DNA of 64,000 nucleotides from the NCBI GenBank assembly GCA_032158295.1, contig CM063243.1, positions 7,324,948 through 7,388,947 on the forward strand, written 5' to 3'. This document shows, piece after piece, positions 39,593 through 61,681 of this stretch. A model generated the notes under the pieces. The model was given only the letters and a program-made list of their open reading frames with translations. It searched no databases and was not told the DNA's origin. Numbering within the stretch: position 1 is the first letter of the stretch; every line of letters begins with the position of its first letter. The position numbers and the translations under genes were made by a program. The DNA is from Pycnopodia helianthoides. Its lineage: Eukaryota; Echinodermata; Asteroidea; Forcipulatida; Asteriidae.

Positions 39593-39681
39593 TGCCGTGA
39601 AATGCAGACCACATTGCAATCTCACGGTGTGCACAACGCACAATCCATTGCAACATACGAGTGGTCAAAATGCGATATTAC
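39593..39681. repeat. 89-bp target duplication, left copy
   Basis: The segment from TGCCGTGAAATGCAGACCAC to TCAAAATGCGATATTAC is identical to 61682-61770. The two copies sit directly at both edges of the Penelope-like array. This is the clearest sign that the outer limits of the array are insertion boundaries. Confidence 0.9.
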
Positions 39682-39936
39682 TGATAGAGAAATGATGGCG
39701 CTGTCCCATTCAGTGACACTCCAACACTGTTGACTTGAGATTTACATAAAACTGTAAAAATGTTTTTACATGCTTTATGGGTGAGGTTTGCGTCTGGGTA
39801 ATATGTTCGTATTTTTGTCAAATTGACGGGGGTGATATGACAAACATAAATAGGACCAGAGGAACTGGTTGACAAGTGTCAACAAATTGGTTTTCAAGGG
39901 GTAGACCGCGAGGATATTTTTTCAGATCCTCTTTGT

Positions 39937-39989
39937 GTATAGCAATAACATGTTTTCATGCCTTCTTGGCACTCATCAGTTGCATGTGG
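39937..39989 (-). ncRNA. Hammerhead ribozyme motif (3' fragment)
   Basis: Same sequence as the motif described at 45148-45200. Predicted cleavage lies between 39946 and 39945 (minus-strand direction). Confidence 0.8.
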
Positions 39990-40093
39990 GTGATTCTAAT
40001 AGAATCTGTAGGTCTTATGTCTTGTGAAAGACATATTATTTGTGTAGTTCGCTTAGGTTCAGGTAAAATGTAATATTTTCCGTATGCGGATTT

Positions 40094-40413
40094 TTAGTCC
40101 TGAGTTGAGTTTTCAGTATATGTGACCTGTTCCTCCAATAAGGATATTAGGATGTTTAGTGTTTCATCCGGGTCTTCAAAACCCGAATCATCAGGGGGTG
40201 GAGCGAGCTGTTTAGAGGTTGAGTCGGTTGGACTCCGGTTTAGTTTTGCTCTGATCATCTTTTCCCTTATGTTTTGATCTTTTCTATACGCAATGAAAGG
40301 AGGGTCTGGAAAGATCCCCGAAAGTGTTTCATGATTGCGTATTAGAGACCAGTTTTGTTTGATGGATTTGTTTAGGTCACTTTGGTTGATGTACGGGTTG
40401 TATGTCGTACTGA
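40094..40413 (-). pseudogene. PLE reverse transcriptase, C-terminal remnant
   Basis: It encodes only the last 105 or so residues (from TTYNPYINQSDLNKSIKQ to the stop). All catalytic motifs are absent because of the 5' truncation. Confidence 0.85.
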
Positions 40414-40668
40414 TGATAGAGAAATGATGGCGCTGTCCCATTCAGTGACACTCCAACACTGTTGACTTGAGATTTACATAAAACTGTAAAAATGTTTTTA
40501 CATGCTTTATGGGTGAGGTTTGCGTCTGGGTAATATGTTCGTATTTTTGTCAAATTGACGGGGGTGATATGACAAACATAAATAGGACCAGAGGAACTGG
40601 TTGACAAGTGTCAACAAATTGGTTTTCAAGGGGTAGACCGCGAGGATATTTTTTCAGATCCTCTTTGT

Positions 40669-40721
40669 GTATAGCAATAACATGTTTTCATGCCTTCTTG
40701 GCACTCATCAGTTGCATGTGG
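40669..40721 (-). ncRNA. Hammerhead ribozyme motif, unit 1
   Basis: Same as at 45148-45200. Predicted cleavage lies between 40678 and 40677 (minus-strand direction). Confidence 0.85.
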
Positions 40722-40825
40722 GTGATTCTAATAGAATCTGTAGGTCTTATGTCTTGTGAAAGACATATTATTTGTGTAGTTCGCTTAGGTTCAGGTAAAA
40801 TGTAATATTTTCCGTATGCGGATTT

Positions 40826-42874
40826 TTAGTCCTGAGTTGAGTTTTCAGTATATGTGACCTGTTCCTCCAATAAGGATATTAGGATGTTTAGTGTTTCATC
40901 CGGGTCTTCAAAACCCGAATCATCAGGGGGTGGAGCGAGCTGTTTAGAGGTTGAGTCGGTTGGACTCCGGTTTAGTTTTGCTCTGATCATCTTTTCCCTT
41001 ATGTTTTGATCTTTTCTATACGCAATGAAAGGAGGGTCTGGAAAGATCCCCGAAAGTGTTTCATGATTGCGTATTAGAGACCAGTTTTGTTTGATGGATT
41101 TGTTTAGGTCACTTTGGTTGATGTACGGGTTGTATGTCGTACTGAAAACCAATGGAGTTTTGCTTTCCGTTTTTTCTTGTTGTTTATGAATCAAATTAGA
41201 TCGTTCTCTGTGTGATACTGTTTCCGTGATTTTGTTTATCTCTGAAAGGTTATAGCCTCTTGCTATTAGCTTTTCAGAGAAATTGTTGACTTTAATTAAG
41301 AAATCATCTTCGTTATTTGTGTTTCTGGCATATCGGAGTGTTTCTCCGTATATGAATGCTTTGAACACATGTGGGGGGTGTGATGATGTCTTGTGTAGGT
41401 ATTGGTAGGTTTCAGTAGGTTTGGTATATACTTTTGTGTCTAAAATACCAGTTTCACTGAACCTTTTACCTTTGAAGATTGTTAGGTCAAGGTAGTTGAT
41501 GGCAGTATCAGAGGCCTCAAAAGTGAATTTGAGGGTTGGGTGTATTTGATTCATGTCGTTGATAAGGCTCTTGAAATTGTCAAGGGTGTTGTTATAGATG
41601 ACAAGTATGTCGTCTCTATAACGCCACCAGGTTAGGATGTGATCAGCTTTTTCCAGGATTTGTTTTTCCAGAACATGTAGTGTAATATCACAGATTTCAG
41701 GGCTTGCTGTTGAACCCATGGCGCATCCGATTTTTTGGAGATAGTAGTTGTTACTGAAATGGAAGCAGTTTCTTCCTAATATCAGTTCCAATAGCTTACG
41801 GATGCAGTTGGAGGGTGGTTTTGTGATAGAGTATGGGTGGTTGGTTCGGTCTAGGGCATCGCAAACACTGTTTATTGCTTCCGTTTGACGGACGTTTGTG
41901 TACATTGAGACAACATCAATACTTGTTATCAGAACATTGGGTGGAAATGTGGAATCCTCAAGTTTGCGCAATATGTCTGCGGTATCGCGGACATATGTTG
42001 GTTGGGCGGTAACTATCGGAAGAAGGAAAAAGTCCACAAATTCTGATATTTTGGCTGTAGGGCTTGAACATCCACTTATTATAGGTCTCCCTACGAAAGG
42101 CGTGCCCGCGGGTGGTGTTTTGTGTATCTTCGGCAGAAAATACATAGTAGGGCAGTGGCCTGGTTGTGAGAGTGGATCAAGATAAGCCAGGGTTTGTTTG
42201 TTGATGTATTTGCTTCTATGCATATTGATGAGTAGGTTGTGGACCATTGTAATGGTCTGTTGTGTGATATCTTGGTCAAGCTTTGTGTAGTGCTTGGATT
42301 CAAGATGTCGGTAGCCTACTTCAAGGTAATCAGTGCGGTTCATTATGCAAATGCCTCTTCCTTTGTCGTAAGGTTTAATTACGATGTCTGGATTGTTTTT
42401 TAGTTTGGTTATGGCTGATATTTCTTGTTTGGTCATATTTCTGAGCTGATTGCGCAATCGAATATGAGCAAATTGGTATTTTGTGGCTTCCAAATAATTC
42501 TCGAGTGTCGCACATTGTGTTGAATTTGGATGCCATTTTGAGGGTGGTTTGAAAGGTTGAGCCTTGGTAGGTTTGTTGTGCATTAGGAAGGCAATTCTCA
42601 TTCTTCTTTGGAAGATATTGAAATCACTCAGAAGTTTTTTACGGGTGGGTTTGGCCGGAGTGGGAACAAAGTTGAGACCTTTTCCTAAAGCAACTTTCTC
42701 AATTGTGGAAAGGTTTGCCTTGGATAGGTTGGTTATGAAATGTTCACTTTCTTCTGCCAGTTGTTTAAGAATATTATTCTTTTTGAACCGTTTAGATTTG
42801 GAGCATGTGTGTGAAAAGTTATTGGCTTTTCTTTGGGAGCTGTTTGCTCGTTTATCAAACTTTCGTTTAGTCAT
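40826..42874 (-). CDS. Penelope-like reverse transcriptase (no GIY-YIG endonuclease)
   Basis: The 682-residue protein would copy element RNA into DNA. A basic N-terminus (residues 1-35) precedes the Penelope block GKGLNFVPTPAKPT (64-77). YFLPKIHKTP (245) and GRPIISGCSSP (262) are followed by motif A SIDVVSMYTNV (318-328, catalytic D320), motif B AMGSTASPEICD (385-396), motif C WWRYRDDILVI (416-426, D421/D422) and YLDLTIFKGK (461-470). KVYTKPTETYQYLHKTSSHP (481-500) is the Penelope/telomerase-like thumb entry. After the IREKMIRAKLN helix (625-635) the protein ends in an acidic tail, where canonical Penelope proteins carry a GIY-YIG nuclease. The ATG lies 184 nt after the ORF1 stop. Confidence 0.9.
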   Translation of the reverse strand: MTKRKFDKRANSSQRKANNFSHTCSKSKRFKKNNILKQLAEESEHFITNLSKANLSTIEKVALGKGLNFVPTPAKPTRKKLLSDFNIFQRRMRIAFLMHNKPTKAQPFKPPSKWHPNSTQCATLENYLEATKYQFAHIRLRNQLRNMTKQEISAITKLKNNPDIVIKPYDKGRGICIMNRTDYLEVGYRHLESKHYTKLDQDITQQTITMVHNLLINMHRSKYINKQTLAYLDPLSQPGHCPTMYFLPKIHKTPPAGTPFVGRPIISGCSSPTAKISEFVDFFLLPIVTAQPTYVRDTADILRKLEDSTFPPNVLITSIDVVSMYTNVRQTEAINSVCDALDRTNHPYSITKPPSNCIRKLLELILGRNCFHFSNNYYLQKIGCAMGSTASPEICDITLHVLEKQILEKADHILTWWRYRDDILVIYNNTLDNFKSLINDMNQIHPTLKFTFEASDTAINYLDLTIFKGKRFSETGILDTKVYTKPTETYQYLHKTSSHPPHVFKAFIYGETLRYARNTNNEDDFLIKVNNFSEKLIARGYNLSEINKITETVSHRERSNLIHKQQEKTESKTPLVFSTTYNPYINQSDLNKSIKQNWSLIRNHETLSGIFPDPPFIAYRKDQNIREKMIRAKLNRSPTDSTSKQLAPPPDDSGFEDPDETLNILISLLEEQVTYTENSTQD

Positions 42875-43058
42875 ACTTATGAAAGAAGAGTTATACCAGT
42901 AGTTGTGTTCAGTAATAATATATACTTGGATTTGTCGTATTATATTATTATTATTAGATTATTTATTTAATGAAAAATAAATAACAAAGCTGTATATTAT
43001 CTCTCTTTGGAAGATGGGGTGGTCCTGAAAAGGACCGGTTTGTTTGAAAGTAAACGAG

Positions 43059-43715
43059 TTACAGGTGCTCCCGTTTTCTCTTCGAGCCCTTGCTTGCCGG
43101 TTGTCTTGGTCTTGTGAAGTACCCGAAGAGTTGAGTGGCCGTTCTCAGGTTGGCTCCTTCAAAGTCTGCTACAAGCTTGGTTCTTGCCTCTTTCCTCGCC
43201 GTCCCCAATTTCTGTTCGATCTCCTTCTCCTGGAACTTGTACTCTTCCAGTGCTAGTTGTACTAGAAGCAACGAGGCTTTTGACGTGAGTCTATTCCAGT
43301 TCTCCGTAAAGGAGGGCTGAAAGGTTAGGCCTCGGTGCGGGTGTGGTGGTTTCGCCGTTGATTTTAGGTAGACCGGAGGTTTGTTTGTTGTTATGGCTTG
43401 GTTGTAAACTCCTAGTTGACTAGTGATGTGGCTTTTGGCGGCCGATAGTCTGTTGACTGGTTCCGCCAAAAGTTTCACGTTGTTGAAGTCAGTTTCTGAT
43501 AGCCTGATACGAGGGACAGGGGTTTCGTTTGCGAATTCCTCCCTGACCTCGAGAGATGTAATTAGGGAGTCCTCTAGGCGGTCTATCAGGGGCAGTTGTC
43601 CGCACTGGAAGTCGCTAGAGTTGGAGGATGCAGGAGATGGTGGGTCCTGGCTGGGAGGAGGTTGAGGGCTTGTTTTGGTGCGTCGCTTGAAGGATTTACT
43701 TAGCTTGGTCGACAT
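43059..43715 (-). CDS. PLE ORF1 protein, unrecognised
   Basis: The 218-residue protein is conserved in all units but not recognised. A basic, Ser/Pro-rich N-terminus (SKSFKRRTKTSPQPPPSQDP) is followed by an acidic stretch (RLEDSLITSLEVREEF, 46-61), a middle part PPVYLKSTAKPPHPHRGLTF, and a predicted amphipathic or coiled-coil helix (SLLLVQLALEEYKFQEKEIE to RTKLVADFEG, about 148-188). The C-terminus KGSKRKREHL looks like a nuclear localisation signal. A nucleic-acid-binding or coat-like role would be typical for a first ORF but is only inference. The ATG is chosen because it follows a stop and all units share it. ORF2 follows in the same direction after 184 nt. Confidence 0.7.
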   Translation of the reverse strand: MSTKLSKSFKRRTKTSPQPPPSQDPPSPASSNSSDFQCGQLPLIDRLEDSLITSLEVREEFANETPVPRIRLSETDFNNVKLLAEPVNRLSAAKSHITSQLGVYNQAITTNKPPVYLKSTAKPPHPHRGLTFQPSFTENWNRLTSKASLLLVQLALEEYKFQEKEIEQKLGTARKEARTKLVADFEGANLRTATQLFGYFTRPRQPASKGSKRKREHL

Positions 43716-44892
43716 GTTGTCAGTGGCGTGATCGCCGTGGTGACAGGGTATAAATCCAGAGAAAAAGTGGACGCTGCGAAGGTCACTCAGGTGTATGCTT
43801 CCAGGAGTTGCGGGTAGTTGATTGGTTGGTTGAAGTTCCTTTGTGTTCAGAAGGTGTTAGTGTCCAGTAGTTCCGGTGGTTGGCTCGCACAAAATGCGCG
43901 GGAATACTGAATGTGGGATTCTGGATTCCGTGGCAAGTTTGTGTTTGTTTTTTTGTGGAAATGGCGAGATTTTCCCTTTTCGAATGCGAAAAAATGAGAA
44001 ATAAAATTGTAGTACCATTTCTACAGATGTGTGGAGTACTAATTGAGTATATGAGCCAGATTATTTGTTCCCTTCCGGTTGCGGAATTGGGAAAGGTATC
44101 ACGGGTTGTTTGTGTGTGAAGGGTTGTAATGATTTTCTATTGTTTTGGAGCAAATATTTCTGTTCTGTCCCGCCTGCGGGTGTGTGAACGGGGAGTGGTT
44201 ATACTTTTTTTTTTTGCTCGTGTTTGTTTTTATTTTGGAAGATGTTCCATGATTTGATTTTGAAAATCTCATTTCCCGAGGAAATGGTATATATACCCGG
44301 TTGCGGGTAAATTGTAGTATTGTGGTACCTTAGTTATATTATAAGGTGTATAAACGGGTTTGACATCGAGACAAGGGTTTATGGGTTGTGGGTAGTGTTT
44401 TGTAAAGAAAATAATGGATTGCTGTTTGCGTTTACATTATAATCTCTTATATGGTAATTAATTATTAAATAATAATTAATTCAAGAGTGTGGGTACCCAT
44501 TCATTTATGTGTTTTCCATCTGAATGCAGAAAGTTTCGGAAAAATATTGAAAGGTGTTTGGTGTCCTTTTTAAAACCGGATTGCGGAAGGAAAAGGTTTT
44601 GAGTTTATTTTCAATATTTGTATTTATGTGGATGTCAGGTTCGTTCTTTTTAAGAAGAGCGGAACGGATTTTGGTTTTGGACATCATGGTAATGATGTTA
44701 TTTGGTCATGTTTTTAGACGGACCGGTAGGTATCAAGTCGTGTAGTGGCATAAAGTATGTCTTATACCTGTTGTAGTGCAGTGTGGAGCAACCTGAAGAT
44801 ACCAGTCTCGCTAAACGAGTGGTATACCCCGGTAGCTTGTGTAGCCATCGACCCACAGTACCTCCTAAAAAGGCAAGGAGTATAGCAGTAAA
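43716..44892 (-). promoter_or_regulatory. PLE unit 5' leader / inter-unit region
   Basis: In each full unit, 1177 nt separate the unit's 5' edge from the ORF1 ATG. It holds a stem-loop near the 5' edge (44799-44825: ATACCA, CTCG, loop CTAAA, CGAG, TGGTAT), a TATATATA run (44288-44295) and several CCGGTTGCGG-type words. In tandem copies this region lies directly after the 3' end of the preceding unit, where a promoter would be expected. No protein-coding frame is convincing. Confidence 0.45.
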
Positions 44893-45078
44893 TGATAGAG
44901 AAATGATGGCGCTGTCCCATTCAGTGACACTCCAACACTGTTGACTTGAGATTTACATAAAACTGTAAAAATGTTTTTACATGCTTTATGGGTGAGGTTT
45001 GCGTCTGGGTAATATGTTCGTATTTTTGTCAAATTGACGGGGGTGATATGACAAACATAAATAGGACCAGAGGAACTG

Positions 45079-45094
45079 GTTGACAAGTGTCAAC
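45079..45094. repeat. Palindrome GTTGACAAGTGTCAAC between ribozyme and unit end
   Basis: A perfect 7-bp inverted repeat with a 2-nt centre lies 54 nt downstream (minus strand) of the ribozyme and 186 nt before the unit's 3' end. It is present in the other units too. It could form a hairpin in the RNA or bind a dimeric protein in the DNA; neither is shown. Confidence 0.55.
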
Positions 45095-45147
45095 AAATTG
45101 GTTTTCAAGGGGTAGACCGCGAGGATATTTTTTCAGATCCTCTTTGT

Positions 45148-45200
45148 GTATAGCAATAACATGTTTTCATGCCTTCTTGGCACTCATCAGTTGCATGTGG
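45148..45200 (-). ncRNA. Hammerhead ribozyme motif, unit 2
   Basis: On the minus strand: stem I strand UGCAA, core CUGAUGA (45190-45184), stem II GUGCC / loop AAGAA / GGCAU (45183-45169), core GAAA (45168-45165), short stem III ACAUGUU, cleavage triplet UUA (ends at 45157), then UUGC pairing back to GCAA of stem I. All invariant core bases of a hammerhead are present. It is a type I form with a 3-bp stem III. Such minimal hammerheads are known in Penelope-like elements and plant retrozymes. Predicted cut lies between 45157 and 45156. Confidence 0.88.
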
Positions 45201-45304
45201 GTGATTCTAATAGAATCTGTAGGTCTTATGTCTTGTGAAAGACATATTATTTGTGTAGTTCGCTTAGGTTCAGGTAAAATGTAATATTTTCCGTATGCGG
45301 ATTT

Positions 45305-47353
45305 TTAGTCCTGAGTTGAGTTTTCAGTATATGTGACCTGTTCCTCCAATAAGGATATTAGGATGTTTAGTGTTTCATCCGGGTCTTCAAAACCCGAATC
45401 ATCAGGGGGTGGAGCGAGCTGTTTAGAGGTTGAGTCGGTTGGACTCCGGTTTAGTTTTGCTCTGATCATCTTTTCCCTTATGTTTTGATCTTTTCTATAC
45501 GCAATGAAAGGAGGGTCTGGAAAGATCCCCGAAAGTGTTTCATGATTGCGTATTAGAGACCAGTTTTGTTTGATGGATTTGTTTAGGTCACTTTGGTTGA
45601 TGTACGGGTTGTATGTCGTACTGAAAACCAATGGAGTTTTGCTTTCCGTTTTTTCTTGTTGTTTATGAATCAAATTAGATCGTTCTCTGTGTGATACTGT
45701 TTCCGTGATTTTGTTTATCTCTGAAAGGTTATAGCCTCTTGCTATTAGCTTTTCAGAGAAATTGTTGACTTTAATTAAGAAATCATCTTCGTTATTTGTG
45801 TTTCTGGCATATCGGAGTGTTTCTCCGTATATGAATGCTTTGAACACATGTGGGGGGTGTGATGATGTCTTGTGTAGGTATTGGTAGGTTTCAGTAGGTT
45901 TGGTATATACTTTTGTGTCTAAAATACCAGTTTCACTGAACCTTTTACCTTTGAAGATTGTTAGGTCAAGGTAGTTGATGGCAGTATCAGAGGCCTCAAA
46001 AGTGAATTTGAGGGTTGGGTGTATTTGATTCATGTCGTTGATAAGGCTCTTGAAATTGTCAAGGGTGTTGTTATAGATGACAAGTATGTCGTCTCTATAA
46101 CGCCACCAGGTTAGGATGTGATCAGCTTTTTCCAGGATTTGTTTTTCCAGAACATGTAGTGTAATATCACAGATTTCAGGGCTTGCTGTTGAACCCATGG
46201 CGCATCCGATTTTTTGGAGATAGTAGTTGTTACTGAAATGGAAGCAGTTTCTTCCTAATATCAGTTCCAATAGCTTACGGATGCAGTTGGAGGGTGGTTT
46301 TGTGATAGAGTATGGGTGGTTGGTTCGGTCTAGGGCATCGCAAACACTGTTTATTGCTTCCGTTTGACGGACGTTTGTGTACATTGAGACAACATCAATA
46401 CTTGTTATCAGAACATTGGGTGGAAATGTGGAATCCTCAAGTTTGCGCAATATGTCTGCGGTATCGCGGACATATGTTGGTTGGGCGGTAACTATCGGAA
46501 GAAGGAAAAAGTCCACAAATTCTGATATTTTGGCTGTAGGGCTTGAACATCCACTTATTATAGGTCTCCCTACGAAAGGCGTGCCCGCGGGTGGTGTTTT
46601 GTGTATCTTCGGCAGAAAATACATAGTAGGGCAGTGGCCTGGTTGTGAGAGTGGATCAAGATAAGCCAGGGTTTGTTTGTTGATGTATTTGCTTCTATGC
46701 ATATTGATGAGTAGGTTGTGGACCATTGTAATGGTCTGTTGTGTGATATCTTGGTCAAGCTTTGTGTAGTGCTTGGATTCAAGATGTCGGTAGCCTACTT
46801 CAAGGTAATCAGTGCGGTTCATTATGCAAATGCCTCTTCCTTTGTCGTAAGGTTTAATTACGATGTCTGGATTGTTTTTTAGTTTGGTTATGGCTGATAT
46901 TTCTTGTTTGGTCATATTTCTGAGCTGATTGCGCAATCGAATATGAGCAAATTGGTATTTTGTGGCTTCCAAATAATTCTCGAGTGTCGCACATTGTGTT
47001 GAATTTGGATGCCATTTTGAGGGTGGTTTGAAAGGTTGAGCCTTGGTAGGTTTGTTGTGCATTAGGAAGGCAATTCTCATTCTTCTTTGGAAGATATTGA
47101 AATCACTCAGAAGTTTTTTACGGGTGGGTTTGGCCGGAGTGGGAACAAAGTTGAGACCTTTTCCTAAAGCAACTTTCTCAATTGTGGAAAGGTTTGCCTT
47201 GGATAGGTTGGTTATGAAATGTTCACTTTCTTCTGCCAGTTGTTTAAGAATATTATTCTTTTTGAACCGTTTAGATTTGGAGCATGTGTGTGAAAAGTTA
47301 TTGGCTTTTCTTTGGGAGCTGTTTGCTCGTTTATCAAACTTTCGTTTAGTCAT
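45305..47353 (-). CDS. Penelope-like reverse transcriptase, unit 2
   Basis: A full 682-residue frame with the same protein sequence as unit 1, including the YRDD active site and the acidic C-terminal tail. Identity of both intact copies suggests recent amplification, or selection at the time of amplification. Confidence 0.9.
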   Translation of the reverse strand: MTKRKFDKRANSSQRKANNFSHTCSKSKRFKKNNILKQLAEESEHFITNLSKANLSTIEKVALGKGLNFVPTPAKPTRKKLLSDFNIFQRRMRIAFLMHNKPTKAQPFKPPSKWHPNSTQCATLENYLEATKYQFAHIRLRNQLRNMTKQEISAITKLKNNPDIVIKPYDKGRGICIMNRTDYLEVGYRHLESKHYTKLDQDITQQTITMVHNLLINMHRSKYINKQTLAYLDPLSQPGHCPTMYFLPKIHKTPPAGTPFVGRPIISGCSSPTAKISEFVDFFLLPIVTAQPTYVRDTADILRKLEDSTFPPNVLITSIDVVSMYTNVRQTEAINSVCDALDRTNHPYSITKPPSNCIRKLLELILGRNCFHFSNNYYLQKIGCAMGSTASPEICDITLHVLEKQILEKADHILTWWRYRDDILVIYNNTLDNFKSLINDMNQIHPTLKFTFEASDTAINYLDLTIFKGKRFSETGILDTKVYTKPTETYQYLHKTSSHPPHVFKAFIYGETLRYARNTNNEDDFLIKVNNFSEKLIARGYNLSEINKITETVSHRERSNLIHKQQEKTESKTPLVFSTTYNPYINQSDLNKSIKQNWSLIRNHETLSGIFPDPPFIAYRKDQNIREKMIRAKLNRSPTDSTSKQLAPPPDDSGFEDPDETLNILISLLEEQVTYTENSTQD

Positions 47354-47537
47354 ACTTATGAAAGAAGAGTTATACCAGTAGTTGTGTTCAGTAATAATAT
47401 ATACTTGGATTTGTCGTATTATATTATTATTATTAGATTATTTATTTAATGAAAAATAAATAACAAAGCTGTATATTATCTCTCTTTGGAAGATGGGGTG
47501 GTCCTGAAAAGGACCGGTTTGTTTGAAAGTAAACGAG

Positions 47538-48194
47538 TTACAGGTGCTCCCGTTTTCTCTTCGAGCCCTTGCTTGCCGGTTGTCTTGGTCTTGTGAAGTA
47601 CCCGAAGAGTTGAGTGGCCGTTCTCAGGTTGGCTCCTTCAAAGTCTGCTACAAGCTTGGTTCTTGCCTCTTTCCTCGCCGTCCCCAATTTCTGTTCGATC
47701 TCCTTCTCCTGGAACTTGTACTCTTCCAGTGCTAGTTGTACTAGAAGCAACGAGGCTTTTGACGTGAGTCTATTCCAGTTCTCCGTAAAGGAGGGCTGAA
47801 AGGTTAGGCCTCGGTGCGGGTGTGGTGGTTTCGCCGTTGATTTTAGGTAGACCGGAGGTTTGTTTGTTGTTATGGCTTGGTTGTAAACTCCTAGTTGACT
47901 AGTGATGTGGCTTTTGGCGGCCGATAGTCTGTTGACTGGTTCCGCCAAAAGTTTCACGTTGTTGAAGTCAGTTTCTGATAGCCTGATACGAGGGACAGGG
48001 GTTTCGTTTGCGAATTCCTCCCTGACCTCGAGAGATGTAATTAGGGAGTCCTCTAGGCGGTCTATCAGGGGCAGTTGTCCGCACTGGAAGTCGCTAGAGT
48101 TGGAGGATGCAGGAGATGGTGGGTCCTGGCTGGGAGGAGGTTGAGGGCTTGTTTTGGTGCGTCGCTTGAAGGATTTACTTAGCTTGGTCGACAT
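47538..48194 (-). CDS. PLE ORF1 protein, unit 2
   Basis: The full 218-residue frame is identical to unit 1. It is followed after 184 nt by the reverse transcriptase. Confidence 0.7.
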   Translation of the reverse strand: MSTKLSKSFKRRTKTSPQPPPSQDPPSPASSNSSDFQCGQLPLIDRLEDSLITSLEVREEFANETPVPRIRLSETDFNNVKLLAEPVNRLSAAKSHITSQLGVYNQAITTNKPPVYLKSTAKPPHPHRGLTFQPSFTENWNRLTSKASLLLVQLALEEYKFQEKEIEQKLGTARKEARTKLVADFEGANLRTATQLFGYFTRPRQPASKGSKRKREHL

Positions 48195-49626
48195 GTTGTC
48201 AGTGGCGTGATCGCCGTGGTGACAGGGTATAAATCCAGAGAAAAAGTGGACGCTGCGAAGGTCACTCAGGTGTATGCTTCCAGGAGTTGCGGGTAGTTGA
48301 TTGGTTGGTTGAAGTTCCTTTGTGTTCAGAAGGTGTTAGTGTCCAGTAGTTCCGGTGGTTGGCTCGCACAAAATGCGCGGGAATACTGAATGTGGGATTC
48401 TGGATTCCGTGGCAAGTTTGTGTTTGTTTTTTTGTGGAAATGGCGAGATTTTCCCTTTTCGAATGCGAAAAAATGAGAAATAAAATTGTAGTACCATTTC
48501 TACAGATGTGTGGAGTACTAATTGAGTATATGAGCCAGATTATTTGTTCCCTTCCGGTTGCGGAATTGGGAAAGGTATCACGGGTTGTTTGTGTGTGAAG
48601 GGTTGTAATGATTTTCTATTGTTTTGGAGCAAATATTTCTGTTCTGTCCCGCCTGCGGGTGTGTGAACGGGGAGTGGTTATACTTTTTTTTTTGCTCGTG
48701 TTTGTTTTTATTTTGGAAGATGTTCCATGATTTGATTTTGAAAATCTCATTTCCCGAGGAAATGGTATATATACCCGGTTGCGGGTAAATTGTAGTATTG
48801 TGGTACCTTAATTATATTATAAGGTGTATAAACGGGTTTGACATCGAGACAAGGGTTTATGGGTTGTGGGTAGTGTTTTGTAAAGAAAATAATGGATTGC
48901 TGTTTGCGTTTACATTATAATCTCTTATATGGTAATTAATTATTAAATAATAATTAATTCAAGAGTGTGGGTACCCATTCATTTATGTGTTTTCCATCTG
49001 AATGCAGAAAGTTTCGGAAAAATATTGAAAGGTGTTTGGTGTCCTTTTTAAAACCGGATTGCGGAAGGAAAAGGTTTTGAGTTTATTTTCAATATTTGTA
49101 TTTATGTGGATGTCAGGTTCGTTCTTTTTTAAGAAGAGCGGAACGGATTTTGGTTTTGGACATCATGGTAATGATGTTATTTGGTCATGTTTTTAGACGG
49201 ACCGGTAGGTATCAAGTCGTGTAGTGGCATAAAGTATGTCTTATACCTGTTGTAGTGCAGTGTGGAGCAACCTGAAGATACCAGTCTCGCTAAACGAGTG
49301 GTATACCCCGGTAGCTTGTGTAGCCATCGACCCACAGTACCTCCTAAAAAGGCAAGGAGTATAGCAGTAAATGATAGAGAAATGATGGCGCTGTCCCATT
49401 CAGTGACACTCCAACACTGTTGACTTGAGATTTACATAAAACTGTAAAAATGTTTTTACATGCTTTATGGGTGAGGTTTGCGTCTGGGTAATATGTTCGT
49501 ATTTTTGTCAAATTGACGGGGGTGATATGACAAACATAAATAGGACCAGAGGAACTGGTTGACAAGTGTCAACAAATTGGTTTTCAAGGGGTAGACCGCG
49601 AGGATATTTTTTCAGATCCTCTTTGT

Positions 49627-49679
49627 GTATAGCAATAACATGTTTTCATGCCTTCTTGGCACTCATCAGTTGCATGTGG
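49627..49679 (-). ncRNA. Hammerhead ribozyme motif, unit 3
   Basis: Same as in unit 2. Predicted cut lies between 49636 and 49635. Confidence 0.85.
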
Positions 49680-49783
49680 GTGATTCTAATAGAATCTGTA
49701 GGTCTTATGTCTTGTGAAAGACATATTATTTGTGTAGTTCGCTTAGGTTCAGGTAAAATGTAATATTTTCCGTATGCGGATTT

Positions 49784-51832: not shown

Positions 51833-52016
51833 ACTTATGAAAGAAGAGTTATACCAGTAGTTGTGTTCAGTAATAATATATACTTGGATTTGTCGTATTA
51901 TATTATTATTATTAGATTATTTATTTAATGAAAAATAAATAACAAAGCTGTATATTATCTCTCTTTGGAAGATGGGGTGGTCCTGAAAAGGACCGGTTTG
52001 TTTGAAAGTAAACGAG

Positions 52017-52672
52017 TTACAGGTGCTCCCGTTTTCTCTTCGAGCCCTTGCTTGCCGGTTGTCTTGGTCTTGTGAAGTACCCGAAGAGTTGAGTGGCCGT
52101 TCTCAGGTTGGTCCTTCAAAGTCTGCTACAAGCTTGGTTCTTGCCTCTTTCCTCGCCGTCCCCAATTTCTGTTCGATCTCCTTCTCCTGGAACTTGTACT
52201 CTTCCAGTGCTAGTTGTACTAGAAGCAACGAGGCTTTTGACGTGAGTCTATTCCAGTTCTCCGTAAAGGAGGGCTGAAAGGTTAGGCCTCGGTGCGGGTG
52301 TGGTGGTTTCGCCGTTGATTTTAGGTAGACCGGAGGTTTGTTTGTTGTTATGGCTTGGTTGTAAACTCCTAGTTGACTAGTGATGTGGCTTTTGGCGGCC
52401 GATAGTCTGTTGACTGGTTCCGCCAAAAGTTTCACGTTGTTGAAGTCAGTTTCTGATAGCCTGATACGAGGGACAGGGGTTTCGTTTGCGAATTCCTCCC
52501 TGACCTCGAGAGATGTAATTAGGGAGTCCTCTAGGCGGTCTATCAGGGGCAGTTGTCCGCACTGGAAGTCGCTAGAGTTGGAGGATGCAGGAGATGGTGG
52601 GTCCTGGCTGGGAGGAGGTTGAGGGCTTGTTTTGGTGCGTCGCTTGAAGGATTTACTTAGCTTGGTCGACAT
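52017..52672 (-). pseudogene. PLE ORF1, unit 3, one-base deletion
   Basis: A single C is missing near 52111 (TTGGTCCTTC against TTGGCTCCTTC). The frame ends after residue 189 (DFEGPT), losing the last 30 residues including the KGSKRKREHL signal. Confidence 0.85.
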
Positions 52673-54108
52673 GTTGTCAGTGGCGTGATCGCCGTGGTGA
52701 CAGGGTATAAATCCAGAGAAAAAGTGGACGCTGCGAAGGTCACTCAGGTGTATGCTTCCAGGAGTTGCGGGTAGTTGATTGGTTGGTTGAAGTTCCTTTG
52801 TGTTCAGAAGGTGTTAGTGTCCAGTAGTTCCGGTGGTTGGCTCGCACAAAATGCGCGGGAATACTGAATGTGGGATTCTGGATTCCGTGGCAAGTTTGTG
52901 TTTGTTTTTTTGTGGAAATGGCGAGATTTTCCCTTTTCGAATGCGAAAAAATGAGAAATAAAATTGTAGTACCATTTCTACAGATGTGTGGAGTACTAAT
53001 TGAGTATATGAGCCAGATTATTTGTTCCCTTCCGGTTGCGGAATTGGGAAAGGTATCACGGGTTGTTTGTGTGTGAAGGGTTGTAATGATTTTCTATTGT
53101 TTTGGAGCAAATATTTCTGTTCTGTCCCGCCTGCGGGTGTGTGAACGGGGAGTGGTTATACTTTTTTTTTTTTTTGCTCGTGTTTGTTTTTATTTTGGAA
53201 GATGTTCCATGATTTGATTTTGAAAATCTCATTTCCCGAGGAAATGGTATATATACCCGGTTGCGGGTAAATTGTAGTATTGTGGTACCTTAGTTATATT
53301 ATAAGGTGTATAAACGGGTTTGACATCGAGACAAGGGTTTATGGGTTGTGGGTAGTGTTTTGTAAAGAAAATAATGGATTGCTGTTTGCGTTTACATTAT
53401 AATCTCTTATATGGTAATTAATTATTAAATAATAATTAATTCAAGAGTGTGGGTACCCATTCATTTATGTGTTTTCCATCTGAATGCAGAAAGTTTCGGA
53501 AAAATATTGAAAGGTGTTTGGTGTCCTTTTTAAAACCGGATTGCGGAAGGAAAAGGTTTTGAGTTTATTTTCAATATTTGTATTTATGTGGATGTCAGGT
53601 TCGTTCTTTTTTAAGAAGAGCGGAACGGATTTTGGTTTTGGACATCATGGTAATGATGTTATTTGGTCATGTTTTTAGACGGACCGGTAGGTATCAAGTC
53701 GTGTAGTGGCATAAAGTATGTCTTATACCTGTTGTAGTGCAGTGTGGAGCAACCTGAAGATACCAGTCTCGCTAAACGAGTGGTATACCCCGGTAGCTTG
53801 TGTAGCCATCGACCCACAGTACCTCCTAAAAAGGCAAGGAGTATAGCAGTAAATGATAGAGAAATGATGGCGCTGTCCCATTCAGTGACACTCCAACACT
53901 GTTGACTTGAGATTTACATAAAACTGTAAAAATGTTTTTACATGCTTTATGGGTGAGGTTTGCGTCTGGGTAATATGTTCGTATTTTTGTCAAATTGACG
54001 GGGGTGATATGACAAACATAAATAGGACCAGAGGAACTGGTTGACAAGTGTCAACAAATTGGTTTTCAAGGGGTAGACCGCGAGGATATTTTTTCAGATC
54101 CTCTTTGT

Positions 54109-54161
54109 GTATAGCAATAACATGTTTTCATGCCTTCTTGGCACTCATCAGTTGCATGTGG
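54109..54161 (-). ncRNA. Hammerhead ribozyme motif, unit 4
   Basis: Same as in unit 2. Predicted cut lies between 54118 and 54117. Confidence 0.85.
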
Positions 54162-54265
54162 GTGATTCTAATAGAATCTGTAGGTCTTATGTCTTGTGAA
54201 AGACATATTATTTGTGTAGTTCGCTTAGGTTCAGGTAAAATGTAATATTTTCCGTATGCGGATTT

Positions 54266-56313
54266 TTAGTCCTGAGTTGAGTTTTCAGTATATGTGACCT
54301 GTTCCTCCAATAAGGATATTAGGATGTTTAGTGTTTCATCCGGGTCTTCAAAACCCGAATCATCAGGGGGTGGAGCGAGCTGTTTAGAGGTTGAGTCGGT
54401 TGGACTCCGGTTTAGTTTTGCTCTGATCATCTTTTCCCTTATGTTTTGATCTTTTCTATACGCAATGAAAGGAGGGTCTGGAAAGATCCCCGAAAGTGTT
54501 TCATGATTGCGTATTAGAGACCAGTTTTGTTTGATGGATTTGTTTAGGTCACTTTGGTTGATGTACGGGTTGTATGTCGTACTGAAAACCAATGGAGTTT
54601 TGCTTTCCGTTTTTTCTTGTTGTTTATGAATCAAATTAGATCGTTCTCTGTGTGATACTGTTTCCGTGATTTTGTTTATCTCTGAAAGGTTATAGCCTCT
54701 TGCTATTAGCTTTTCAGAGAAATTGTTGACTTTAATTAAGAAATCATCTTCGTTATTTGTGTTTCTGGCATATCGGAGTGTTTCTCCGTATATGAATGCT
54801 TTGAACACATGTGGGGGGTGTGATGATGTCTTGTGTAGGTATTGGTAGGTTTCAGTAGGTTTGGTATATACTTTTGTGTCTAAAATACCAGTTTCACTGA
54901 ACCTTTTACCTTTGAAGATTGTTAGGTCAAGGTAGTTGATGGCAGTATCAGAGGCCTCAAAAGTGAATTTGAGGGTTGGGTGTATTTGATTCATGTCGTT
55001 GATAAGGCTCTTGAAATTGTCAAGGGTGTTGTTATAGATGACAAGTATGTCGTCTCTATAACGCCACCAGGTTAGGATGTGATCAGCTTTTTCCAGGATT
55101 TGTTTTTCCAGAACATGTAGTGTAATATCACAGATTTCAGGGCTTGCTGTTGAACCCATGGCGCATCCGATTTTTTGGAGATAGTAGTTGTTACTGAAAT
55201 GGAAGCAGTTTCTTCCTAATATCAGTTCCAATAGCTTACGGATGCAGTTGGAGGGTGGTTTTGTGATAGAGTATGGGTGGTTGGTTCGGTCTAGGGCATC
55301 GCAAACACTGTTTATTGCTTCCGTTTGACGGACGTTTGTGTACATTGAGACAACATCAATACTTGTTATCAGAACATTGGGTGGAAATGTGGAATCCTCA
55401 AGTTTGCGCAATATGTCTGCGGTATCGCGGACATATGTTGGTTGGGCGGTAACTATCGGAAGAAGGAAAAAGTCCACAAATTCTGATATTTTGGCTGTAG
55501 GGCTTGAACATCCACTTATTATAGGTCTCCCTACGAAAGGCGTGCCCGCGGGTGGTGTTTTGTGTATCTTCGGCAGAAAATACATAGTAGGGCAGTGGCC
55601 TGGTTGTGAGAGTGGATCAAGATAAGCCAGGGTTTGTTTGTTGATGTATTTGCTTCTATGCATATTGATGAGTAGGTTGTGGACCATTGTAATGGTCTGT
55701 TGTGTGATATCTTGGTCAAGCTTTGTGTAGTGCTTGGATTCAAGATGTCGGTAGCCTACTTCAAGGTAATCAGTGCGGTTCATTATGCAAATGCCTCTTC
55801 CTTTGTCGTAAGGTTTAATTACGATGTCTGGATTGTTTTTTAGTTTGGTTATGGCTGATATTTCTTGTTTGGTCATATTTCTGAGCTGATTGCGCAATCG
55901 AATATGAGCAAATTGGTATTTTGTGGCTTCCAAATAATTCTCGAGTGTCGCACATTGTGTTGAATTTGGATGCCATTTTGAGGTGGTTTGAAAGGTTGAG
56001 CCTTGGTAGGTTTGTTGTGCATTAGGAAGGCAATTCTCATTCTTCTTTGGAAGATATTGAAATCACTCAGAAGTTTTTTACGGGTGGGTTTGGCCGGAGT
56101 GGGAACAAAGTTGAGACCTTTTCCTAAAGCAACTTTCTCAATTGTGGAAAGGTTTGCCTTGGATAGGTTGGTTATGAAATGTTCACTTTCTTCTGCCAGT
56201 TGTTTAAGAATATTATTCTTTTTGAACCGTTTAGATTTGGAGCATGTGTGTGAAAAGTTATTGGCTTTTCTTTGGGAGCTGTTTGCTCGTTTATCAAACT
56301 TTCGTTTAGTCAT
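54266..56313 (-). pseudogene. PLE reverse transcriptase, unit 4, frameshifted
   Basis: One G is missing from a G-run near 55982 (TTTTGAGGTGG against TTTTGAGGGTGG), breaking the frame after about residue 110. The downstream part, with all catalytic motifs, is still open from residue 128 on, so only the N-terminal block is disconnected. Confidence 0.85.
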
Positions 56314-56497
56314 ACTTATGAAAGAAGAGTTATACCAGTAGTTGTGTTCAGTAATAATATATACTTGGATTTGTCGTATTATATTATTATTATTAGATTA
56401 TTTATTTAATGAAAAATAAATAACAAAGCTGTATATTATCTCTCTTTGGAAGATGGGGTGGTCCTGAAAAGGACCGGTTTGTTTGAAAGTAAACGAG

Positions 56498-57154
56498 TTA
56501 CAGGTGCTCCCGTTTTCTCTTCGAGCCCTTGCTTGCCGGTTGTCTTGGTCTTGTGAAGTACCCGAAGAGTTGAGTGGCCGTTCTCAGGTTGGCTCCTTCA
56601 AAGTCTGCTACAAGCTTGGTTCTTGCCTCTTTCCTCGCCGTCCCCAATTTCTGTTCGATCTCCTTCTCCTGGAACTTGTACTCTTCCAGTGCTAGTTGTA
56701 CTAGAAGCAACGAGGCTTTTGACGTGAGTCTATTCCAGTTCTCCGTAAAGGAGGGCTGAAAGGTTAGGCCTCGGTGCGGGTGTGGTGGTTTCGCCGTTGA
56801 TTTTAGGTAGACCGGAGGTTTGTTTGTTGTTATGGCTTGGTTGTAAACTCCTAGTTGACTAGTGATGTGGCTTTTGGCGGCCGATAGTCTGTTGACTGGT
56901 TCCGCCAAAAGTTTCACGTTGTTGAAGTCAGTTTCTGATAGCCTGATACGAGGGACAGGGGTTTCGTTTGCGAATTCCTCCCTGACCTCGAGAGATGTAA
57001 TTAGGGAGTCCTCTAGGCGGTCTATCAGGGGCAGTTGTCCGCACTGGAAGTCGCTAGAGTTGGAGGATGCAGGAGATGGTGGGTCCTGGCGGGGAGGAGG
57101 TTGAGGGCTTGTTTTGGTGCGTCGCTTGAAGGATTTACTTAGCTTGGTCGACAT
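56498..57154 (-). CDS. PLE ORF1 protein, unit 4
   Basis: An intact 218-residue frame with one change from unit 1 (Ser22 to Arg in the Pro-rich N-terminus). Confidence 0.7.
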   Translation of the reverse strand: MSTKLSKSFKRRTKTSPQPPPRQDPPSPASSNSSDFQCGQLPLIDRLEDSLITSLEVREEFANETPVPRIRLSETDFNNVKLLAEPVNRLSAAKSHITSQLGVYNQAITTNKPPVYLKSTAKPPHPHRGLTFQPSFTENWNRLTSKASLLLVQLALEEYKFQEKEIEQKLGTARKEARTKLVADFEGANLRTATQLFGYFTRPRQPASKGSKRKREHL

Positions 57155-58580
57155 GTTGTCAGTGGCGTGATCGCCGTGGTGACAGGGTATATATCCAGAG
57201 AAAAAGTGGACGCTGCGAAGGTCACTCAGGTGTATGCTTCCAGGAGTTGCGGGTAGTTGATTGGTTGGTTGAAGTTCCTTTGTGTTCAGAAGGTGTTAGT
57301 GTCCAGTAGTTCCGGTGGTTGGCTCGCACAAAATGCGCGGGAATACTGAATGTGGGATTCTGGATTCCGTGGCAAGTTTGTGTTTGTTTTTTGTGGAAAT
57401 GGCGAAATTTTCCCTTTTCGAATGCGAAAAAATGAGAAATAAAATTGTAGTACCATTTCTACAGATGTGTGGAGTACTAATTGAGTATATGAGCCAGATT
57501 ATTTGTTCCCTTCCGGTTGCGGAATTGGGAAAGGTATCACGGGTTGTTTGTGTGTGAAGGGTTGTAATGATTTTCTATTGTTTTGGAGCAAATATTTCTG
57601 TTCTGTCCCGCCTGCGGGTGTGTGAACGGGAGTGGTTATACTTTTTTTTGCTCGTGTTTGTTTTTATTTTGGAAGATGTTCCATGATTTGATTTTGAAAA
57701 TCTCATTTCCCGAGGAAATGGTATATATACCCGGTTGCGGGTAAATTGTAGTATTGTGGTACCTTAGTTATATTATAAGGTGTATAAACGGGTTTGACAT
57801 CGAGACAAGGGTTTATGGGTTGTGGGTAGTGTTTTGTAAAGAAAATAATGGATTGCTGTTTGCGTTTACATTATAATCTCTTATATGGTAATTAATTATT
57901 AAATAATAATTAATTCAAGAGTGTGGGTACCCATTCATTTATGTGTTTTCCATCTGAATGCAGAAAGTTTCGGAAAAATATTGAAAGGTGTTTGGTGTCC
58001 TTTTTAAAACCGGATTGCGGAAGGAAAAGGTTTTGAGTTTATTTTCAATATTTGTATTTATGTGGATGTCAGGTTCGTTCTTTTTTAAGAAGAGCGGAAC
58101 GGATTTTGGTTTTGGACATCATGGTAATGATGTTATTTGGTCATGTTTTTAGACGGACCGGTAGGTATCAAGTCGTGTAGTGGCATAAAGTATGTCTTAT
58201 ACCTGTTGTAGTGCAGTGTGGAGCAACCTGAAGATACCAGTCTCGCTAAACGAGTGGTATACCCCGGTAGCTTGTGTAGCCATCGACCCACAGTACCTCC
58301 TAAAAAGGCAAGGAGTATAGCAGTAAATGATAGAGAAATGATGGCGCTGTCCCATTCAGTGACACTCCAACACTGTTGACTTGAGATTTACATAAAACTG
58401 TAAAAGTGTTTTTACATGCTTTATGGGTGAGGTTTGCGTCTGGGTAATATGTTCGTATTTTTGTCAAATTGACGGGGTGATATGACAAACATAAATAGGA
58501 CCAGAGGAACTGGTTGACAAGTGTCAACAAATTGGTTTTCAAGGGTAGACCGCGAGGATATTTTTTCAGATCCTCTTTGT

Positions 58581-58633
58581 GTATAGCAATAACATGTTTT
58601 CATGCCTTCTTGGCACTCATCAGTTGCATGTGG
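58581..58633 (-). ncRNA. Hammerhead ribozyme motif, unit 5
   Basis: Same core as in unit 2 although the unit has other changes nearby (two one-base deletions between the ribozyme and the 3' end). Predicted cut lies between 58590 and 58589. Confidence 0.83.
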
Positions 58634-58737
58634 GTGATTCTAATAGAATCTGTAGGTCTTATGTCTTGTGAAAGACATATTATTTGTGTAGTTCGCTTAG
58701 GTTCAGGTAAAATGTAATATTTTCCGTATGCGGATTT

Positions 58738-60787
58738 TTAGTCCTGAGTTGAGTTTTCAGTATATGTGACCTGTTCCTCCAATAAGGATATTAGGATGTT
58801 TAGTGTTTCATCCGGGTCTTCAAAACCCGAAACATCAGGGGGTGGAGCGAGCTGTTTAGAGGTTGAGTCGGTTGGACTCCGGTTTAGTTTTGCTCTGATC
58901 ATCTTTTCCCTTATGTTTTGATCTTTTCTATACGCAATGAAAGGAGGGTCTGGAAAGATCCCCGAAAGTGTTTCATGATTGCGTATTAGAGACCAGTTTT
59001 TGTTTGATGGATTTGTTTAGGTCACTTTGGTTGATGTACGGGTTGTATGTCGTACTGAAAACCAATGGAGTTTTGCTTTCCGTTTTTTCTTGTTGTTTAT
59101 GAATCAAATTAGATCGTTCTCTGTGTGATACTGTTTCCGTGATTTTGTTTATCTCTGAAAGGTTATAGCCTCTTGCTATTAGCTTTTCAGAGAAATTGTT
59201 GACTTTAATTAAGAAATCATCTTCGTTATTTGTGTTTCTGGCATATCGGAGTGTTTCTCCGTATATGAATGCTTTGAACACATGTGGGGGGTGTGATGAT
59301 GTCTTGTGTAGGTATTGGTAGGTTTCAGTAGGTTTGGTATATACTTTTGTGTCTAAAATACCAGTTTCACTGAACCTTTTACCTTTGAAGATTGTTAGGT
59401 CAAGGTAGTTGATGGCAGTATCAGAGGCCTCAAAAGTGAATTTGAGGGTTGGGTGTATTTGATTCATGTCGTTGATAAGGCTCTTGAAATTGTCAAGGGT
59501 GTTGTTATAGATGACAAGTATGTCGTCTCTATAACGCCACCAGGTTAGGATGTGATCAGTTTTTTCCAGGATTTGTTTTTCCAGAACATGTAGTGTAATA
59601 TCACAGATTTCAGGGCTTGCTGTTGAACCCATGGCGCATCCGATTTTTTGGAGATAGTAGTTGTTACTGAAATGGAAGCAGTTTCTTCCTAATATCAGTT
59701 CCAATAGCTTACGGATGCAGTTGGAGGGTGGTTTTGTGATAGAGTATGGGTGGTTGGTTCGGTCTAGGGCATCGCAAACACTGTTTATTGCTTCCGTTTG
59801 ACGGACGTTTGTGTACATTGAGACAACATCAATACTTGTTATCAGAACATTGGGTGGAAATGTGGAATCCTCAAGTTTGCGCAATATGTCTGCGGTATCG
59901 CGGACATATGTTGGTTGGGCGGTAACTATCGGAAGAAGGAAAAAGTCCACAAATTCTGATATTTTGGCTGTAGGGCTTGAACATCCACTTATTATAGGTC
60001 TCCCTACGAAAGGCGTGCCCGCGGGTGGTGTTTTGTGTATCTTCGGCAGAAAATACATAGTAGGGCAGTGGCCTGGTTGTGAGAGTGGATCAAGATAAGC
60101 CAGGGTTTGTTTGTTGATGTATTTGCTTCTATGCATATTGATGAGTAGGTTGTGGACCATTGTAATGGTCTGTTGTGTGATATCTTGGTCAAGCTTTGTG
60201 TAGTGCTTGGATTCAAGATGTCGGTAGCCTACTTCAAGGTAATCAGTGCGGTTCATTATGCAAATGCCTCTTCCTTTGTCGTAAGGTTTAATTACGATGT
60301 CTGGATTGTTTTTTAGTTTGGTTATGGCTGATATTTCTTGTTTGGTCATATTTCTGAGCTGATTGCGCAATCGAATATGAGCAAATTGGTATTTTGTGGC
60401 TTCCAAATAATTCTCGAGTGTCGCACATTGTGTTGAATTTGGATGCCATTTTGAGGGTGGTTTGAAAGGTTGAGCCTTGGTAGGTTTGTTGTGCAATAGG
60501 AAGGCAATTCTCATTCTTCTTTGGAAGATATTGAAATCACTCAGAAGTTTTTTACGGGTGGGTTTGGCCGGAGTGGGAACAAAGTTGAGACCTTTTCCTA
60601 AAGCAACTTTCTCAATTGTGGAAAGGTTTGCCTTGGATAGGTTGGTTATGAAATGTTCACTTTCTTCTGCCAGTTGTTTAAGAATATTATTCTTTTTGAA
60701 CCGTTTAGATTTGGAGCATGTGTGTGAAAAGTTATTGGCTTTTCTTTGGGAGCTGTTTGCTCGTTTATCAAACTTTCGTTTAGTCAT
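58738..60787 (-). pseudogene. PLE reverse transcriptase, unit 5, frameshifted
   Basis: An extra T in a T-run near 58997 (CAGTTTTTGTTTG against CAGTTTTGTTTG) shifts the frame after residue 596, so about 85 C-terminal residues are replaced by a short tail. Catalytic motifs are intact. Substitutions include Met98 to Leu and Ala410 to Thr. Confidence 0.85.
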
Positions 60788-60971
60788 ACTTATGAAAGAA
60801 GAGTTATACCAGTAGTTGTGTTCAGTAATAATATATACTTGGATTTGTCGTATTATATTATTATTATTAGATTATTTATTTAATGAAAAATAAATAACAA
60901 AGCTGTATATTATCTCTCTTTGGAAGATGGGGTGGTCCTGAAAAGGACCGGTTTGTTTGAAAGTAAACGAG

Positions 60972-61628
60972 TTACAGGTGCTCCCGTTTTCTCTTCGAGC
61001 CCTTGCTTGCCGGTTGTCTTGGTCTTGTGAAATACCCGAAGAGTTGAGTGGCCGTTCTCAGGTTGGCTCCTTCAAAGTCTGCTACAAGCTTGGTTCTTGC
61101 CTCTTTCCTCGCCGTCCCCAATTTCTGTTCGATCTCCTTCTCCTGGAACTTGTACTCTTCCAGTGCTAGTTGTACTAGAAGCAACGAGGCTTTTGACGTG
61201 AGTCTATTCCAGTTCTCCGTAAAGGAGGGCTGAAAGGTTAGGCCTCGGTGCGGGTGTGGTGGTTTCGCCGTTGATTTTAGGTAGACCGGAGGTTTGTTTG
61301 TTGTTATGGCTTGGTTGTAAACTCCTAGTTGACTAGTGATGTGGCTTTTGGCGGCCGATAGTCTGTTGACTGGTTCCGCCAAAAGTTTCACGTTGTTGAA
61401 GTCAGTTTCTGATAGCCTGATACGAGGGACAGGGGTTTCGTTTGCGAATTCCTCCCTGACCTCGAGAGATGTAATTAGGGAGTCCTCTAGGCGGTCTATC
61501 AGGGGCAGTTGTCCGCACTGGAAGTCGCTAGAGTTGGAGGATGCAGGAGATGGTGGGTCCTGGCTGGGAGGAGGTTGAGGGCTTGTTTTGGTGCGTCGCT
61601 TGAAGGATTTACTTAGCTTGGTCGACAT
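60972..61628 (-). CDS. PLE ORF1 protein, unit 5
   Basis: An intact 218-residue frame. The open frame extends upstream into the flanking target duplication, but the shared ATG at 61628 is the start in all other units and is kept here. Only 52 nt of PLE leader precede it, so this copy probably lacks its own promoter. Confidence 0.7.
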   Translation of the reverse strand: MSTKLSKSFKRRTKTSPQPPPSQDPPSPASSNSSDFQCGQLPLIDRLEDSLITSLEVREEFANETPVPRIRLSETDFNNVKLLAEPVNRLSAAKSHITSQLGVYNQAITTNKPPVYLKSTAKPPHPHRGLTFQPSFTENWNRLTSKASLLLVQLALEEYKFQEKEIEQKLGTARKEARTKLVADFEGANLRTATQLFGYFTRPRQPASKGSKRKREHL

Positions 61629-61681
61629 GTTGTCAGTGGCGTGATCGCCGTGGTGACAGGGTATATATCCAGAGAAAAAGA

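Follow-up and report, generated by a model that had tools for sequence, protein, structure and literature searches.

A 64,000-nucleotide stretch of the genome of the asteroid Pycnopodia helianthoides (contig C1, CM063243.1, 7324948-7388947; hereafter the window) contains a head-to-tail array of a Penelope-like retrotransposon (PLE) whose repeating unit carries a histone-type 3'-end signal. The unit is organized in the order open reading frame 1 (ORF1; 218 aa), histone 3'-end signal, reverse transcriptase (RT) ORF (682 aa) and hammerhead ribozyme. The signal is the most unusual feature of the unit and was not recorded in the initial annotation of the window. Its presence behind ORF1 suggests that part of the life cycle of the element may be tied to DNA replication.

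The histone 3'-end signal and the coding regions

The Rfam model of the histone 3' stem-loop (RF00032) matched all five array units, at 34.5 bits against a threshold of 34. The stem-loop starts 22 nt past the ORF1 stop codon; the stem and loop occupy unit positions 1857-1872, a purine core follows from position 1885, and the RT ORF starts at position 2019. The parts of the signal are a 6-bp stem, a UUUC loop, the motif ACCCCA and an AAAGAG purine core located 12 nt after the stem, and two stem pairs are changed on both sides relative to the Rfam consensus. In the histone literature, cleavage of the pre-mRNA is placed 5 nt after the stem (PMC6303110), and an AAAGAG core is reported in the histone downstream element (HDE) of mouse H2a (PMC7026596). 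The position and spacing of the element's signal match those of histone pre-mRNAs, and the stem-loop, ACC flank, AAAGAG downstream core and proximity to a stop codon are shared with replication-dependent histone genes (PMC6303110, PMC7026596). Unlike those genes, ORF1 has no Pfam match above the cut-off and a second ORF lies behind the signal in the same unit.

The unit was searched for in the same genome (479 Mb, 742 contigs), yielding at least 31 matches; 17 of 434 first-look candidates were scored, and the copy counts are therefore lower bounds. Seventeen further loci were fetched. The stem-loop was at or above threshold in all 13 of the other fetched copies that keep the interval, with scores of 34.0-37.7 bits across all 18 intervals, and it always lay on the sense strand behind ORF1, in array units and other copies alike. 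No other RF00032 match reached threshold in the window or in the 15 loci searched with the model (these exclude L019 and L025; the latter was searched separately and is counted among the 13). The 16 letters of the stem-loop were unchanged in 12 of the 13 other copies, and in the remaining one, L025, a single stem pair was changed on both sides, from C-G to U-A, which is compensatory.

An alignment for the stem pairs was made from seven of the 18 copies, including diverged ones and one array unit. All 36 stem cells were paired in the six distinct rows counted, and the ACC behind the stem and the AAAGAG core, 11-14 nt after it, were kept in all seven rows. The stretch from the stem-loop to the downstream element was identical at 33 of 38 positions in L021 and at 36 and 37 of 38 in the two copies of L022; in L025, where the downstream element is displaced by one base, 26 of 38 columns agreed. 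Identity in the remaining spacer was 58-59% in L021 and one L022 copy, 45% in L025, and 43% in the second L022 copy, whose row extends beyond the spacer. A TA-rich spacer block upstream of the RT start was partly conserved between copies in the alignment, and may provide a start site for RT transcription. By eye, the same alignment contained no common AG before the RT start that would indicate splicing in the spacer.

As judged from codon substitutions, both ORFs have been under purifying selection. Between u1 and L022, ORF1 gave a dS of 1.7-2.0 and a dN/dS of 0.08-0.09 (181 codons), and between u1 and L025 the RT gave a dS of 0.85-1.06 and a dN/dS of 0.14-0.18. The RT of L021 was closer to that of u1 (dS about 0.3), dS was saturated for ORF1 of u1 and L025, and the dN/dS of 0.6 for ORF1 of u1 and L012 reflects 6 differences only, a pair too close to judge. 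The weight of the case for the stem-loop lies on its conservation set against this divergence of ORF1 and RT. The ORF1 product is basic (pI 9.92). A model built from 7 sequences predicts that it folds into helices (mean pLDDT 73.9), with no match among solved structures at E <= 0.001. A search with ORF1 gave six matches, three of them partial.

Organization of the array and of copies elsewhere

The array consists of four full units, a 5'-truncated unit and a 3' fragment, which follow one another head to tail between 61680 and 39682 of the minus strand (units are numbered u1-u5 by their 3' ends). The full units u1-u4 measure 4479, 4479, 4482 and 4474 bp, in agreement with the unit counts and the periods of 4474-4482 bp in the initial annotation. 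Its statement that each unit encodes a 218-aa protein and an RT held for u1 and u2, in which alone both ORFs are open. ORF1 is open in four of the five units (189 aa in u3), and the RT ORF in three of five, with frame-shifts in u4 and u5. Most of these lesions are one-base indels, and assembly error is therefore a possible cause. The intron location given for the array was not confirmed, as no host exon was recognized in 61690-64000 (six frames) or in 24600-39600 (four of six frames, namely all three plus frames and one minus frame).

Substitutions among u1-u4 number 0-4 per pair, with none between u1 and u3 across 4478 aligned bases, and u5 differs from u1 by 6, after exclusion of 8 counted in misaligned flank. 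The junctions between full units are identical, and the terminal fragment begins within the RT ORF and abuts u1 exactly at the 3' end of the element. At least three unit variants are present within this single array: u5 and L009, a copy on another contig, have in common marker bases at unit positions 3246 and 3973 that are absent from u1-u4, and u4 and u1-u3 form a separate line. A perfect 89-bp direct repeat, missing from the initial annotation, flanks the array as a whole and is read as a target duplication. As there is only one such duplication, several independent insertions are unlikely; it would fit either the insertion of a multimer or expansion within one insertion.

A strict hammerhead descriptor matched all six unit 3' ends, between the RT stop and the unit end as initially annotated, and had no match in 100 simulated windows. 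The Rfam hammerhead model gave 18.4 bits against a threshold of 52, a low score that fits a minimal form with a 3-bp stem III. The predicted cut site is 264 nt upstream of the fixed 3' end of the element. Among 17 other aligned copies, L017 has one substitution in the hammerhead GAAA and L022 has one in stem II. Matches to tRNA-Sec and microRNA models in the array were sub-threshold and were taken as chance.

Table 1. Features of the array and its borders, in window coordinates
Feature	Position	Strand	Remarks
Unit 1 (u1)	40414..44892	-	Full; both ORFs open
Unit 2 (u2)	44893..49371	-	Full; both ORFs open
Unit 3 (u3)	49372..53853	-	Full; ORF1 frame-shifted
Unit 4 (u4)	53854..58327	-	Full; RT frame-shifted
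Unit 5 (u5)	58328..61680	-	5'-truncated; RT frame-shifted near C end
3' fragment	39682..40413	-	732 bp, 5'-truncated; 0 substitutions vs u1 3' end
ORF1, 218 aa	47538..48194 (u2); 43059-43715, 56498-57154, 60972-61628	-	Broken in u3
RT ORF, 682 aa, Penelope-type	45305..47353 (u2); 40826-42874, 49784-51832	-	Broken in u4, u5
Stem-loop and downstream element, u1	42996..43041	-	RF00032
Stem-loop and downstream element, u2	47475..47520	-	RF00032, 34.5 bits; between ORF1 stop and RT start
Stem-loop and downstream element, u3	51954..51999	-	RF00032
Stem-loop and downstream element, u4	56435..56480	-	RF00032
Stem-loop and downstream element, u5	60909..60954	-	RF00032
Predicted hammerhead, minimal type I, stem III 3 bp, 42 nt	45153..45194 (u2)	-	One per 3' end, n=6
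Putative target-site duplication, copy 3' of array	39593..39681	-	89 bp, identical to 61682-61770
Putative target-site duplication, copy 5' of array	61682..61770	-	89 bp, identical to 39593-39681

The initial annotation had proposed a lineage that moves as multimers, and a genome-wide search for the unit at other loci. A head-to-tail junction like those of the array was found at one of the 17 other fetched loci (L010, at the end of contig C109), where TATCA|TTTACT joins two units with 4 substitutions over their last 1500 bases. Apart from a head-to-head palindrome (L013) and some rearranged, diverged copies, the remaining loci carry one copy each, in most cases 5'-truncated. Multimers are thus not the rule among these loci, and the proposed multimer lineage is not borne out. 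Given that 17 of 434 candidates were scored and that the L020 sequence begins at the edge of its contig, other arrays may have gone unnoticed. The palindrome in L013 (1807-8440) is a near-perfect 6.6-kb structure centred just before the ORF1 start, with 2 mismatches and 8 gap positions across the 3314 columns of its arms, and looks as if a copy had snapped back on itself. L018 and L019 (contig C12), which hold the same truncated copy in the same flanks about 8.8 kb apart, are on this evidence a local segmental duplication and count as one insertion duplicated with its flanks.

Of 19 other copies compared by BLAST, 17 had their 3' end at unit position 4479, the exceptions being L024, which has no 3' end, and L025, which ends at 4469; the 5' ends were scattered. 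A fixed 3' end with scattered 5' ends resembles the outcome of target-primed copying. When the best three exact flank repeats of at least 6 bp were taken for each of the 17 loci, an abutting repeat was present in L017 only (8 bp); L020 had no upstream flank, L010 had about 50 bases downstream, and the outer flanks were used for L013. The 3' flanks of L021 and L023 have sequence in common, and their ends may therefore belong to a larger repeat. Of the 17 loci, 11 are located megabases within contigs; L017 is about 180 kb and L023 about 53 kb away from a contig end, and four are on contigs of less than 230 kb. Doubled TTAGGG was absent from the window, the only sequence scanned for it. With most loci interior and no doubled TTAGGG in the window, attachment to telomeres is unsupported.

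Several side observations were made. The 5' end of L015 lies at unit position 1900, about 22 nt beyond the expected cut, and is the sole such copy for truncation through a U7-cut RNA. L024 contains at 8656-8735 a hairpin with weak, sub-threshold matches to microRNA families on both strands. Elsewhere in the window there are a tyrosine-recombinase element fragment (30384-32041; Phage_int_SAM_4, E 1.6e-05) that includes a tandem duplication of 234 bp (31456-31925), an RT fragment of another retroelement (26105-26740; RVT_1, E 1.3e-12) and a tRNA gene (16103-16175; Rfam, 56 bits).

Relationship to known elements

The RT ORF matches RVT_1 (Pfam, E 9.1e-08) and has 49 relatives, which upholds its initial description as Penelope-type. 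The animal names given for these relatives are Patiria, Saccoglossus and Ptychodera, which points to an echinoderm as the probable host. The description of two ORFs without a nuclease also stands, since Pfam detected no GIY-YIG or other nuclease in either the RT ORF or ORF1. A tree was built from 44 rows, with six short relatives omitted, and placed the RT in a 26-row clade (100/99) whose members all lack a precomputed GIY-YIG domain; several members are fragments, and the absence is therefore not proven for each. The GIY-YIG-like relatives all fall outside this clade: P0029 and P0035 by precomputed domain, P0031 by a motif match, and P0034 by a similar C end judged by eye. The RT is thus not nested in a GIY-YIG clade, the placement that the initial annotation had named as evidence against its own proposal. 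Viral contigs held no relatives by RT or ORF1, and GTDB contigs none by RT.

On these sequence grounds, the element is classed as an endonuclease-deficient two-ORF PLE of an animal. It has the Penelope-type RT, the hammerhead in a repeated terminal region and the tandem or inverted copies (window array, L010, L013) of PLEs, and has no nuclease of the kind found in canonical GIY-YIG members. The missing nuclease and the second ORF are as in the endonuclease-deficient, telomere-associated PLEs; attachment to telomeres is not. Athena and Coprina are names for the endonuclease-deficient group. Nuclease-less two-ORF PLEs of 4-6 kb are already described, as are Terminons with hammerheads, coiled-coil ORFs and long head-to-tail arrays (PMC6431247, PMC3846280). 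Such elements are telomere-associated, whereas the present one occupies mostly interior loci and carries a histone signal. The Poseidon element of Anolis (PAc) likewise has a Penelope-type RT, a hammerhead, tandem organization and copying that starts internally, downstream of the hammerhead (PMC11167929); it differs in having one ORF with a C-terminal GIY-YIG, in place of two ORFs, no nuclease and a histone 3'-end signal.

The comparison with plant retrozymes made in the initial annotation fails on size, coding capacity and the place of the hammerhead relative to the insertion end. Retrozymes also consist of tandem units that each carry a type I hammerhead, but their repeats are non-autonomous and small, measuring about 150-300 bp in animals and about 700 bp in plants (PMC7761336), whereas the present unit is 4.48 kb, codes for an RT, and has an insertion end that is not at the hammerhead cut. 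With tandem PLEs and hammerheads already in print (PMC11167929; PMC7761336; PMC6431247), the array, the hammerhead and the nuclease-less two-ORF layout are not new in kind. No publication joining a Penelope-like element or a retrotransposon with the histone stem-loop was found, which does not establish that none is in print.

Possible functions of the signal and origins of the array

The observed anatomy, the conservation of the signal, the selection on both ORFs, the single target duplication and the mixture of unit types are probably best explained by a model in which ORF1 is made from a poly(A)-less, S-phase-coupled mRNA processed by the stem-loop binding protein (SLBP) and the U7 small nuclear ribonucleoprotein (snRNP), and in which arrays arise by template jumping or by later expansion of one insertion. 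SLBP and the U7 snRNP would cut the transcript behind ORF1, and the resulting mRNA, lacking poly(A), would be stable and translated mainly in S phase. The RT would be translated from RNA that escapes cutting or from transcripts of a second start within the spacer, and the ORF1 product, basic and predicted to be helical, may serve as an RNA partner or as a complex partner of the RT. Copying would start at the fixed 3' end and be primed on 3'-OH ends that are not cut by the element and are plausibly replication-associated. Arrays would form when the RT, having reached the 5' end of one template, jumps to the 3' end of another, or else through expansion of one insertion at a later time. R2-type RTs reportedly jump between templates end to end; by analogy, such jumping would join unlike copies exactly, 3' end to 5' end.

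A number of observations weigh against this explanation. Most copies score only 34.0-34.5 bits against the threshold of 34, the stem-loop segment folds only moderately better than shuffles (z -1.84), and the hammerhead region folds no better than shuffles (z 0.29). Shuffles equalled the observed covariation, which consists of a single compensatory change, in 88 of 500 cases; covariation is therefore weak evidence and proves nothing alone. A loose stem descriptor, with 0.16 matches per simulated window, also matches once outside the array (28321, plus strand). The spacer has an AATAAA at unit position 1926, and ORF1 could therefore be polyadenylated in the ordinary way; the lack of an AATAAA after the RT stop in u1, by contrast, counts in favour of the explanation. 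The RT ORF also sits 3' of a transcript-end signal, and its expression is not accounted for. That the stem-loop is a functionless chance match or a recently captured histone 3' end would agree with the barely sufficient scores in the window, but this has very little to commend it: the signal is kept in 13 of 13 other copies, including L022, L025 and L021 at a dS from about 0.3 (L021 RT) to 2 (L022 ORF1), and the loose descriptor is rarely matched in simulations. The stem-loop might instead be kept because the full-length template RNA is bound there by the RT, by ORF1 or by host SLBP in export, storage or translation, with no cutting behind ORF1. Cutting at this point would destroy the full-length template; since several copies extend far 5' of the stem-loop, at least some RNA escapes it. 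Such a role is nonetheless unlikely, as the signal lies directly behind the ORF1 stop and the AAAGAG core and ACC are kept in every aligned row, the core serving U7 cutting and not SLBP binding alone.

For the array, the alternative that deserves most attention is that one insertion expanded later, by unequal crossing over or slippage and not by reverse transcription of several templates. This is a possibility of some substance, though we lean away from it: the absence of substitutions between u1 and u3, the resemblance of u1-u3 and u4 to steps of one line and the single target duplication all speak for it, whereas the two L009 marker bases in u5, the terminal fragment, whose start lies inside the RT and whose junction with u1 coincides exactly with the 3' end of the element, and the same end-to-end junction between unlike units on C109 do not. 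Copying of a multimeric RNA, produced when transcription reads through a tandem source or when an RNA circle made by the hammerhead is copied in a rolling manner, would account for a hammerhead at every unit end and for identical junctions. It appears improbable, however, as insertions end 264 nt beyond the hammerhead cut, single copies predominate among the fetched loci, and in the anole PLE mutation of the hammerhead leaves insertion in vitro at the wild-type level (PMC11167929). That the assembly is at fault, and the array longer or shorter in the animal, is more doubtful still. The units are near-identical and hold many one-base indels of a type that long-read assemblies produce, but they differ at distinct sites, and the fragment, the junctions and the 89-bp duplication are coherent.

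The histone 3' stem-loop signal normally ends the messages of replication histones, and a mobile element that keeps it downstream of a gene other than a histone gene would contradict this rule. It is conceivable, and put forward tentatively, that ORF1 is the first protein-coding gene other than a histone gene to carry a complete replication-dependent histone 3' end, its protein being made through SLBP and U7 in S phase by an element that inserts into replication-exposed 3' ends. If so, insertion at such ends would account for the spread of the element without a nuclease of its own, and the element would be a natural reporter of what the histone signal alone confers. The interior insertion of nuclease-less PLEs would then become testable, as the consequence of proteins tied to replication.

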